Of a DNA stretch of 64,000 nucleotides, positions 7,468 through 10,398 are shown one piece after another (the stretch's first letter is position 1; the number at the start of each line of letters is the position of its first letter). The stretch comes from Parasedimentitalea huanghaiensis (GTDB lineage Bacteria; Pseudomonadota; Alphaproteobacteria; Rhodobacterales; Rhodobacteraceae). The notes beneath the pieces were generated by a model that saw only the letters and a program-made list of their open reading frames with translations, did not search any database and was not told the origin of the DNA. The stretch covers positions 62,001-126,000 of the forward strand of contig NZ_WQLV01000002.1 in assembly GCF_009753675.1 (NCBI RefSeq). Reading direction: 5' to 3'. The translations under genes and the position numbers were made by a program.

Positions 7468-7492
7468 TTGCGTCGACATATGGAGAAATTTG

Positions 7493-7519
7493 ATAGAGAG
7501 GCTCTATCGGCCTCTTTAT
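7493..7519 (+). terminator. terminator downstream of fabA
   Basis: Stem ATAGAGAGGC/GCCTCTTTAT (10 bp, one G-U), loop TCTATCG, ending in a T-rich strand. It lies 26 nt after the fabA stop. It would uncouple fabA from the distant fabB. A similar hairpin follows the fabA remnant at 9029. Confidence 0.65.
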
Positions 7520-7676
7520 TGAACCTCATTTCATTCGAAAACCCCGTTTGATTTGCCTGAAAGAGATCTTTTCTATCGTTGCCCAGAACGGATATACCTT
7601 AAAAAACTTCCTGCAAATGTCGACTTTGTTTAGCTGCCGTCTTTCACGTATTCCAACAACTTCAACGGAGAGAGTT

Positions 7677-8753
7677 ATGCACCTATTTAAGACAGCCAGC
7701 GCGGCAGCCAGTTTCGCCTTATCGGTTTTTGTTGTTACTCCCTTGGTCTCTCAAGAATTACCGTCCATCTATCCAGGCGTCACGACGCTAGGTGAGCGCA
7801 CTATCCCCGCACCAGTCGGCCTATCACCTGAGATGCTCGAAGTTGTAAAGGAACGGCAAATTCCACCGTTCATCCCAGCCCCAAATAACACCGATGATTG
7901 GCTGGAATTTCAAGCTATGTTCGACAAGGCGGGTGTAGAGCTTGGCCTTGCAGCCGTCGCCCACAACGAGGCGACTTACGAAGTAAAAGACATTGCTGGA
8001 GTGCGCACATACGTAGTCACACCAAAAAAAGTCAATGACCGCTGGGGGGATCGTGTTTTCGTCCACATCCACGGAGGAGCCTGGGTATTCGGTGGTGGCG
8101 ACAGCGCCCTTCGCGAAGCGGTATGGGCTGCAAGCGGGCTTGGTGTGAAAGTGATTTCTGTCGACTACCGTCGACCACCGCTCCATCCTTTTCCAGCCGC
8201 AATCGAAGACTCTGTAGCTGTTTGGCAAGAGATCCTCAAAACTCAGGACAACTCGCAAACAGCTCTGATAGGCACATCTGCCGGAGGCAACATTTCACTC
8301 GGCACGGTGCTCCGTCTAAAGGAACTTGGGCTACCACTTCCGGGCGCCATATTTGCAGGCACACCGTCGACGGACCTTCAGAACATCAGTGATACCTGGC
8401 GCACATTAGAGGGGTTAGATCCGCTTGGCGCGAGGAAAGAAGGAGGCGTCATTCAAGGAGCTATAGATCTCTATGTTGGCACCTCGGATCCCTCAAACCC
8501 GCTCCTATCGCCTATCAATGGCAATCTGAACGGGTTTCCACCAACTATACTCATATCAGGTACACGGGATATTCTACTAAGCGATACGGTCCGAATGCAC
8601 CGAGCCTTAAGAGGAGCTGGAGTAACCGCAGATCTCCATGTATATGATGGTCAAGCACACGCTGACTATATGCAAAACCTCCTCCGCCCCGTGCCGGAAG
8701 CTACAGATGCTCAGCGCGAATTGTACGAATTTTTTGATAGGCACTTGAAGTAA
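7677..8753 (+). CDS. exported alpha/beta hydrolase (HSL-type esterase)
   Basis: 358 residues from ATG 7677 (GGAGAGA upstream); the frame opens earlier at 7548 but the signal peptide starts here and ends near TPLVSQE, so the enzyme is probably periplasmic or secreted. It belongs to the alpha/beta_hydrolase_3 group: oxyanion motif HIHGGAW (about 130-136), nucleophile Ser201 in GTSAGG, Asp298 in SGTRDIL and His328 in GQAHADY. It probably hydrolyses a carboxylic ester; the substrate is unknown. It interrupts fabA-fabB, and base and codon use look less GC-rich than in the fab genes, so it is probably acquired DNA. Confidence 0.87.
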   Translation: MHLFKTASAAASFALSVFVVTPLVSQELPSIYPGVTTLGERTIPAPVGLSPEMLEVVKERQIPPFIPAPNNTDDWLEFQAMFDKAGVELGLAAVAHNEATYEVKDIAGVRTYVVTPKKVNDRWGDRVFVHIHGGAWVFGGGDSALREAVWAASGLGVKVISVDYRRPPLHPFPAAIEDSVAVWQEILKTQDNSQTALIGTSAGGNISLGTVLRLKELGLPLPGAIFAGTPSTDLQNISDTWRTLEGLDPLGARKEGGVIQGAIDLYVGTSDPSNPLLSPINGNLNGFPPTILISGTRDILLSDTVRMHRALRGAGVTADLHVYDGQAHADYMQNLLRPVPEATDAQRELYEFFDRHLK

Positions 8754-8837
8754 ACGAAGTTGCAACTCGATTATCACGGAACATCCGATTGCCAGCACGG
8801 CCGCTAATCGGCCTGCGGGCTCGTTCAGTGCCTCACC

Positions 8838-8950
8838 CACCTCGCACCAGGCCTTTGCAGAACCTTGTAAGACACAAGCAAACAAGGGAGTGCACGTCTG
8901 CGTCCCATCGTCATCACTCGACTAGGATTGTCTTCTATACCGGAGGTTAA
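8838..8950 (+). pseudogene. remnant of a second fabB 5' end
   Basis: From about 8838 the sequence follows the leader and first codons of fabB (10340-10450). Shared pieces include CAAACAAGGGAGTGCACGT, which is the fabB ribosome binding site, and then a start region in which ATG has become CTG. Translation gives LRPIVITRLGL against the FabB N-terminus MRRVVVTGLGI. Identity over about 80 nt is roughly four in five by eye. It ends at about 8950, where fabA-like sequence begins. It is a dead fragment with no full reading frame. Confidence 0.8.
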
Positions 8951-9007
8951 GCCGGAAATGTCACCTGCGATGTCAAAGGCATGCAAATCACGCCCTGCGA
9001 GACTTAA
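8951..9007 (+). pseudogene. remnant of a second fabA 3' end
   Basis: Reads (A)GNVTCDVKGMQITPCET-stop, against the FabA C-terminus [22 protein letters not shown]: the same frame, the same stop position and the same DVKGM core. It is joined directly to the fabB remnant in the order fabB' then fabA', the reverse of the functional order, and is followed by a hairpin terminator as real fabA is. Only about 18 codons survive. Confidence 0.8.
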
Positions 9008-9028
9008 AGCGAACCAATTTCGTTGAAT

Positions 9029-9057
9029 GGGAAGAGGCCTAGAGCCTTTTCCCTTTT
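9029..9057 (+). terminator. terminator downstream of the fabA remnant
   Basis: Stem GGGAAGAGGC/GCCTTTTCCC (10 bp, one G-U) with loop CTAGA, followed by TTTT. It is placed after the fabA remnant exactly as the 7493-7519 hairpin is placed after intact fabA, which supports the remnant being a former fabA end. Confidence 0.6.
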
Positions 9058-9223
9058 AAAATTTCGTTTGCTCGAGCGGCTTCTACAAGCCCAATACGGA
9101 CTGAATTCAAAATTGCAGAAAGCAATTTCTAGGCTCCTCTGCTTGTGATGAGCCGTATTTTTAGTTGCGTTCTGCTTCCACCCCAACTTTCCTGACTAAG
9201 ACCGCAAGCGGGAGAAGCCAGAC

Positions 9224-10108
9224 ATGACGAACCGAAAGCTCTACCTCGGGCCTCTAACCGACAACAGACGTTGGGATAAGGTCGACATCCGCGCCGATGA
9301 TGTATTCGTCGTGCCCCCCCCCGAAATGCGGAACCACCTGGATGCAAACCATCGTGTCTCTGCTTTTTTCCGGTGATCCTGAGGTCGAAACAGAGTTGTC
9401 TGTCAAAATGCCATGGGTCGACATCCGTATCCGCGAGATGTCCGAAGTCGCGGAGAGGCTCGAAGCCATGCAGCATCGACGCAGCATGAAAAGTCACACA
9501 CCGATGGACGGGCTGCCGTTCGACGATCAGGCGCAATACATCTGCGTGTTTCGCCACCCTCTTGACGCGCATTTCTCGTATCGCAAACATGTACACAACA
9601 TTTCGATGACATGGTTCGACACATGGTTTCCCGAGGATGATGCCGAAGGCATCACAATCCGCCGCTTTCTGGACGGTGGCGCAGAGGGCTTCGATGGAGA
9701 TGCGATGCCGCTCGCGAATATCCTTCAGCATTACAAAGCCGTCTCGGCCCTTGCTGAGCGGCCCAACGTGTCACTTTTTCACTACGCGGATATGACCACA
9801 GATTTAGCAGGCACGTTCACCAGAACGTGTCAGATTTGCTGGGCATTTCCCACACCGAAACAGACATGGAGCAACTTATTCAGGCCGCAACGTTCAACAA
9901 CATGAAGGGCAAAGCCGAACGTTTTGCTCCATCCGGTGGCAAGGGGTTCGTCAAGTCGGACGCTGAGTTTTTTCACAGCGGCACCAGCGGCAAATGGCAT
10001 GGCAAACTGACGAATGATGAATTGGCCGCTTACGACGCAATAATGGATGAATACTTGTCTCCAGAGGACCGCAAATGGTTGGAGTATGGCTCGGAGGGCG
10101 CCGCCTAA
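9224..10108 (+). pseudogene. sulfotransferase family gene broken by two frameshifts
   Basis: Three consecutive reading frames together make one PAPS-dependent sulfotransferase of about 295 residues. Part 1 (9224-9313) starts MTNRKLYLGPLTDNRRWDK and runs to DDVFVV. Part 2 (to about 9815) has the 5'-phosphosulfate loop PPKCGTTWMQTIV, FRHPLDAHFSYRKH (3'-phosphate motif) and LFHYADMTTDLAGT. Part 3 (about 9818-10108) has NVSDLLGISHTETDME and the C-terminal APSGGKGFVKSDAEFF. The first shift is in a run of nine C (9314-9322); eight C would restore the frame. The second, a one-base loss near 9812-9826, is not in a homopolymer. The gene is probably inactive, though the first shift alone could be a read error or slippage. 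Confidence 0.8.
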
Positions 10109-10398
10109 GGGTAACGCCCCAACTCACCACGCAAGTCTGGTTTGTCCCCGCTGCATCTTGTCACCAATAGCTGGGCCAGAACACTTGTACAAACCAGGTT
10201 CGAAGGGCCAATCTAAAATTGCGCATTGTTCCCACTCTGTTTTGTCTATGCTGCAATCAAAGTGAAGGTCAAACGACCCTATCAGCCGACATTTGCCCCA
10301 ACTTTCAAACAACACATAAAGCCAACGCCACTGCAACCTATCTTGCACCTCACCTCTGCAGTGCATAGTAAGACATAAGCAAACAAGGGAGTGCACGT
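10109..10398. other. intergenic region upstream of fabB
   Basis: 290 nt with no convincing gene. The last 60 nt before fabB are the parent of the remnant at 8838. A weak TTGTTC...TATGCT pair near 10228-10254 could serve as a promoter for fabB-fabI, which must be transcribed separately from fabA here; this is a guess from position. Confidence 0.35.

Follow-up and report, generated by a model that had tools for sequence, protein, structure and literature searches.

The essential genes fabA and fabB of Parasedimentitalea huanghaiensis lie in a 64,000-nucleotide stretch of contig NZ_WQLV01000002.1 (positions 62,001 to 126,000 of the forward strand; hereafter the window, with positions counted from its first letter) and are separated there by accessory DNA. 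We favor, at a probability of roughly 60%, the reading that this fabA-fabB gap is an exchange site of the minimal-mobile-element kind, operating without an integrase and fed by housekeeping recombination. Between the intact fabA and fabB lie an esterase gene, then a joint (J, 8835-9007) in which a decayed fabB 5' end (fabB') is followed by a decayed fabA 3' end (fabA'), and then a broken sulfotransferase gene. The best explanation for J, and for the fabA relics, is that they mark stacked insertions.

Both parts of J were recognized by BLASTN inside the window. The left part, 8835-8943, aligns with 10336-10445 (78.2% over 110 bp, E 1.1e-19), a match that takes in the fabB leader and about 47 coding bases; the right part, 8965-9002, aligns with 7425-7462 (81.6% over 38 bp, E 1.7e-4). 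Local scores of 98 for fabB' (maximum of 27 in 500 shuffles) and 41 for fabA' (shuffle maximum of 26) place these matches far above chance. The bases between them, 8944-8964, have no firm assignment to either gene. The J leader is still promoter-like (TCGCAC at 8842-8847, TTGTAA at 8865-8870), and the start codon of fabB' is lost (CTG at 8898-8900). The initial annotation, made from the letters alone, had proposed a decayed fabB 5' end at 8838-8950 joined to a fabA 3' end at 8951-9007; the significant alignments of this region to both local fab genes confirm the joint, with coordinates right to within about 15 bp. Its account of the surroundings also stands: a terminator-like hairpin, now decayed, follows the joint at about 9026-9056 as one follows fabA, the esterase taken as first cargo has an open frame with a match to Abhydrolase_3 (Pfam, E 2.6e-42), and the sulfotransferase (PF00685) is spread over two frames with no open frame spanning the gene.

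We compared eight genomes of the genus, including that of the window (G000). Additional fab relics are present in two of the seven other congeners, always between fabA and fabB, and all relics keep the orientation of their parent genes: J occurs once in G000 and twice in G004 (J1 and J2), and G005 carries a fabA' relic. The order in G004 is fabA, a small gene, J1, a DUF1214/DUF1254 gene, J2, the sulfotransferase gene as in G000 and fabB. In G005, fabA is followed by LysR and TRAP-transporter genes, a universal stress protein gene, the fabA' relic, glyoxalase and HxlR genes and then fabB. The remaining five congeners gave no relic at the sensitivity used, J was not found in six of the eight, and reversed gap sequences, used as a control, gave no match at the 36-bit level applied to relics. 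J1 of G004 keeps its leader (TTGCAC / TAGTAAG) and a clean terminator, GAAAGAGGCCCAAGGGCCTCTTTTT, resembling those of real fabA genes. Decay is evident in J of G000 and in J2 of G004, with the -35 or the -10 element damaged in each, and most of fabA' is gone from J2.

The three J copies have a single junction type and have lost the fabB start codon at the identical place. Because they share these features, a single origin of J, followed by copying or exchange, is most likely. The initial annotation had offered two origins for the order of genes. The first, cargo captured twice through the flanking fab genes, does not hold in the sense of one junction per capture, since the three copies share their junction. 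The second, a tandem duplication followed by loss of the middle, could have happened, although the loss is not needed: the same order would follow from a one-step duplication, from a Campbell-type insertion or from an illegitimate insertion that is one-sided. In its simplest form this second origin makes J the seam of an in situ tandem duplication fabA'-cargo-fabB', after which the seam decayed and both cargo copies were separately replaced; homologous recombination at the fab genes would then have no special part. The order fabA, cargo, fabB'/fabA', cargo, fabB is its exact product, and a single duplication fits one junction common to all copies, but the cargos on either side of J are unrelated in both G000 and G004, and G004 holds two J copies among three different cargos. 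Since the cargos around J are unrelated, replacement by outside DNA is needed even under tandem duplication, and we consider it an unlikely account of the locus as a whole.

An exchange site fed by recombination finds further support in footprints at the relics. Between G000 and G004, identity is 95-97% for the sulfotransferase gene, its intergenic DNA, fabA, fabB and fabI, but 82% for J of the former against J2 of the latter (J versus sulfotransferase divergence, Fisher p 1e-8). Near 9110 the identity of G000 to G004 rises from 48-82% on the left (60-column windows, gaps counted as mismatches) to 97-100% just to the right. This step is sharp, lies inside non-coding DNA and looks like a crossover. 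The fabA relic of G005 is at best 64% identical to fabA over its left 70 bp and 97% identical over its right 36 bp, a contrast with p 9e-5 for a dividing point picked after viewing the alignment; the same two stretches average 91% and 92% in real fabA genes of the congeners. The G005 relic is thus a chimera, which would fit an old relic having recombined with an intact fabA end.

Searches beyond the genus gave no second lineage with J. Among 394 family genomes, for each of which two candidates were scored and among whose hits G004 does not appear, there was no further joint: hits outside G000 cover either the fabB-leader part or the fabA-end part of the query, and we read these partial hits as real fab genes without having checked them individually. 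No J was found in the plasmids searched, and viral contigs contained no exact match to a J-junction pattern. In other gaps there were weak short matches of 19-28 bp (G027, L073 and L078) and no convincing fabA relic.

The gap itself is recurrently open across the family. The comparison covers 104 loci in which fabA and fabB are linked and point the same way: the 8 congeners, 25 loci taken one per genus, and 71 named loci that were the best by FabA identity, so that frequencies in the last set are biased and the one-per-genus set is fairer. Before counting we set aside two loci taken as duplicates (L063 of G007 and L080 of G001), two without a FabB match at the cut-off (G026 and G028), G035 for its position close to the end of a contig, G036 because the stretch retrieved contains no fabA, and seven loci that have no same-orientation fabB within reach (L086, L106, L109, L119, L127, L139 and L140). 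Of the 104 loci, 41 have a gap of no more than 80 bp, 11 one of 81-250 bp and 52 one above 250 bp, the last comprising 8/8 congeners (0.8-6.1 kb), 6/25 other genera with one genome each and 38/71 named loci. In the tight operon state, seen in many family genomes, fabA and fabB are 10-80 bp apart. Neighbouring spacings, taken as controls, are much less variable: fabB-fabI exceeds 250 bp in 3/96 loci and Irr/Fur-fabA exceeds 311 bp in 5/100. On a FabB+FabI tree the state changes 22 times between open and operon; well-supported branches force 15 of these changes, and Aliiroseovarius, Litoreibacter and Ruegeria each contain both states. The open site recurs in many genera of the Roseobacter group, alternating with the closed operon. 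The gap comparison in related Rhodobacteraceae, with its other cargo and the further relics of G004 and G005, bears out the proposal that the locus is an integration hot spot with recurrent insertion and fast-changing cargo.

Linkage of fabA and fabB is not universal. The two genes have opposite orientations in L086, and L119, L139 and L140 have no fabB within the stretch examined. In Ruegeria pomeroyi DSS-3, fabA is on a 491-kb plasmid record (NC_006569.1, 489509-490015; 93.5% protein identity to that of the window).

Sequence elements around the gap suggest that the open state splits fabA and fabB into two transcription units. Of the 63 loci whose gap is 80 bp or longer, 38 carry the motif TTGC - 17 to 24 - nnTAnn(A/T) at most 75 bases upstream of fabB; none of the 41 tight loci does. 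Terminator-like hairpins follow fabA in 28 of the 52 loci with gaps above 250 bp, tight gaps being mostly too short for such a hairpin. With two predicted transcription units, DNA between fabA and fabB should disturb neither gene. One locus is arranged differently: in L047 (G006) no terminator was detected downstream of fabA, and a gene of 420 aa whose product matches Mrr_cat and Peptidase_M78 begins some 20 bp past the end of fabA, so that the fabA transcript may extend into this cargo.

Such putative insulation also suits the possibility that the site is merely tolerant, that is, that rare illegitimate insertions survive there and that J and the fabA relic are inert debris. Terminator- and promoter-like elements frequently frame the gap, fabA has no excess of recombination (see below), and two of the three J copies (that of G000 and J2) show decay, all of which agree with it. 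It does not account for the recurrence of relics from both flanking genes in one order and with a shared, copied junction, for the identity step at the edge of J, or for a chimeric G005 relic with a fresh 36-bp end. We therefore rate mere tolerance as quite improbable.

The cargo turns over rapidly. Fifty of the 52 open gaps (all except G029 and G033, which fell outside the cargo annotation) contain 117 open reading frames (ORFs) of at least 60 aa, and these form only 12 small clusters of related proteins; among the eight congeners the only shared cargo is the sulfotransferase of G000 and G004 (BLASTP at 1e-8). A Pfam scan covered 80 of the 86 ORFs that reach 100 aa, representing 46 of the 52 gaps. 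Among the families matched are TRAP transporters, PhoX phosphatase, dimethylsulfoniopropionate (DMSP) lyase, aldehyde dehydrogenase and sulfotransferases, together with nuclease-like proteins, a caspase-like protein and a putAbiC protein; 28 of the 80 have no Pfam match at E 0.001. The fabA-fabB gap is a place to search for rare accessory genes, some of them defence-like. Among 248 family genomes, one besides the window's own has a relative of the esterase at E<=1e-60 (41% identical), and two have relatives of the G004 DUF1254 protein (76-86%), with no fab gene in the 16 kb around either; viral contigs yielded no relatives of the esterase. None of the 80 scanned cargo ORFs, all of them genes inside the gap, matches an integrase, transposase, resolvase or other DNA recombinase family, in agreement with the initial suggestion that the site needs no integrase.

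Several individual gaps are of interest for their contents. In Yoonia tamlensis (L070 10608-12543) a Hint-domain gene lies between two pieces, all within the fabA-fabB gap, and both pieces cluster with one gene of Yoonia sp. I 8.24 (L064 12040-12714); the Hint-domain gene is apparently an insertion into older cargo. The gaps of L068, L067, L117 and L107 carry a putAbiC (phage abortive infection) protein, a caspase-domain protein, an HNH protein and a DMSP lyase, and some gaps may hold defence genes. Two Planktotalea species (L108 and L115) have an enoyl-CoA-hydratase gene in common on the fabB side of the gap and differ on the fabA side, where the change again lies.

Genomic islands commonly use the 3' ends of genes. 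Ends of fabA of about 36-44 bp form direct repeats to the right of cargo in three of the eight congeners (G000, G004 and G005) and could be attachment (att) sites of a site-specific integration at the fabA 3' end, with an integrase acting in trans or since lost. The lack of an integrase match in the scanned cargo, the presence of fabB' within J, which an att site leaves unexplained, and the lack of a convincing fabA relic in gaps beyond these three make this very improbable. That J is a selected element, whose promoter and terminator yield a short RNA with fabB 5' and fabA 3' sequence, perhaps a decoy, is hardly credible, for although J1 of G004 keeps its leader and clean terminator, J of G000 and J2 each have a damaged -35 or -10 element, J2 is without most of fabA', J is not found in six of the eight congeners, and an Rfam scan of 6800-10500 gave no family above its cut-off.

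The exchange site that we favor could work as follows. Accessory DNA would arrive on chromosomal fragments, taken up through a gene transfer agent or transformation, and the cell's own recombination, probably dependent on RecA, would fix the cargo using whatever homology is present: fabA, fabB or their relics. One event in the genus would have joined a fabB 5' end to a fabA 3' end, giving J, and this would require one non-homologous step. The likeliest single step begins with a fragment fabA-cargo-fabB' whose homology anchor is in fabA and whose broken fabB end joins the fabA 3' end of the recipient without homology; insertion of a circle (Campbell-type) or tandem duplication would lead to the same product. 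J would then be carried along and probably reused as homology. Unequal recombination, either at the 3' end of fabA or at J, would let later cargo in on the fabA side, resulting in stacked cassettes with the newest presumably beside fabA and the oldest, decaying ones beside fabB.

A bolder version, which we put forward tentatively and think rather doubtful, makes J a reusable recombination seam, with cargo plus J as a cassette that RecA could insert, delete or swap in one piece, in an integron-like array that has no integrase. If true, each cargo would sit between direct repeats of the fabA 3' or the fabB 5' end, and the attachment sites would be scraps of two essential genes.

Several observations weigh against an exchange site driven by homology in fabA and fabB. 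(i) A fabA serving as a routine homology arm predicts that its alleles track the state of the gap or that fabA is excessively mosaic, and neither is seen. State changes number 19 on the FabA tree, 18 on FabI and 20 on FabB (96 loci), showing no allele tracking; with such similar counts, fabA alleles do not visibly travel with the state. In 6000 random triplets from 76 loci (12 loci, among them the seven other congeners, and L068 were left out), fabA was mosaic at the p<0.001 threshold in 0.7%, compared with 0.7-3.6% for fabB and fabI. (ii) The state is clustered on the FabB+FabI tree, with its 22 changes against a shuffled mean of 32.5, and much of the open or operon state is therefore inherited. 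(iii) Third codon positions are 90% identical between G000 and G004, and by that yardstick the divergence of J is only modestly in excess. (iv) J relics were found in one genus only, and the newest-next-to-fabA order would rest on three genomes. That fabA and fabB themselves generally act as homology arms is thus no more than a possibility: the footprints that speak for recombination are local and concern the relics, and fabA neither tracks the state nor shows excess mosaicism.

The fabA genes of the genus do contain one apparent exchange. In hand-picked comparisons their similarity (window 6958-7467) passes, near base 240-290, between Phaeobacter-like (L081/L094) and Tritonibacter-like (L075/L078) sequences, and the same comparison with L067 has no such change. 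This suggests that part of fabA was exchanged long ago in one lineage. We dropped the change point as evidence for recombination at the hot spot, since in unselected triplets mosaicism of fabA does not exceed that of fabB or fabI.

In its structure the locus matches the minimal mobile element as defined in the available text of PMC3082526, citing Saunders and Snyder 2002 and Snyder 2007: in Neisseria, a conserved gene pair has differing cassettes between its members, and homologous recombination incorporates them. Here the conserved pair is fabA and fabB, in the same orientation in 104 loci; different whole-gene cassettes occur per genome (117 ORFs, 50 gaps, 12 small clusters); and no mobility gene is found among the 80 scanned cargo ORFs. 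On incorporation through the flanking genes the signs are mixed, local footprints standing beside a fabA with neither excess mosaicism nor allele tracking. Unlike the Neisseria elements as that text presents them, the variation seen at fabA-fabB is between species and genera (one genome per species) rather than strains, the pair alternates between tight operon and open states, and one genus has the ends of the flanking genes inside the array as a copied joint. Horizontal gene transfer hotspots without mobile-element proteins, according to the portion of Oliveira et al. 2017 at hand (PMC5635113), show more recombination in flanking core genes; the present site resembles them in its fast turnover, core-gene flanks and lack of a detected integrase, and the missing recombination excess in fabA sets it apart. 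It differs from an integrase-driven island in that 0/80 cargo genes in the gap encode an integrase, genes outside the gap lying beyond the scan.

For the origin of J, homology-facilitated illegitimate recombination, as outlined in the accessible part of PMC3240628, combines one homologous with one illegitimate end and would produce a fabB'-fabA' joint in a single step; unlike that process, the joint here is deduced from a fossil rather than an observed event. For delivery, the gene transfer agent RcGTA carries fragments of about 4.5 kb that are integrated by allelic replacement (excerpt of PMC9690577). A gene of such an agent is present in the window's genome (family GTA_TIM, along with ComEC), and 48 of the 52 open gaps are no longer than 4.5 kb, though short gaps are expected anyway. 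By analogy with these systems, as far as the excerpts describe them, one-sided illegitimate recombination and transfer by such an agent are plausible routes.

The kind of exchange site is thus already known, and what varies here is the copied joint of the two flanking genes, of which we found no description in the literature searched: searches for fabA/fabB with Roseobacter genomic islands or Rhodobacteraceae gave no paper on the fabA-fabB site, and searches for flanking-gene relics at integration hotspots gave none by title among the matches listed. We regard fabA-fabB as an unusually legible case of this known kind, for entry of accessory genes without mobile elements is usually deduced from statistics on flanking genes, while here the seams survive as a copied joint and a chimeric relic. 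The features of the window locus are collected in Table 1.

Table 1. Coordinates of the fabA-fabB locus in the window
Feature	Position	Strand	Basis
fabA, intact; left border of the hot spot	6958..7467	+	
Terminator-like hairpin 3' of fabA	7491..7517	+	
Cargo 1: alpha/beta-hydrolase (esterase) gene, open	7677..8753 (ORF open from 7548)	+	Pfam
J, left part: decayed fabB leader and fabB 5' end	8835..8943	+	BLASTN, alignment
Junction zone fabB'/fabA'; same sequence type in all three J copies	8944..8964	+	
J, right part: decayed fabA 3' end	8965..9007	+	BLAST match to 9002, stop codon 9005-9007
Decayed copy of the fabA terminator	9026..9056	+	sequence; compare J1 of G004
Identity step versus G004, putative crossover	9105..9120	.	
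Cargo 2: broken sulfotransferase gene, 95% to the G004 version	9224..10108	+	
Promoter-like leader of fabB, TTGCAC - 17 bp - TAGTAA	10343..10372	+	
fabB, intact; right border of the hot spot	10399..11628	+

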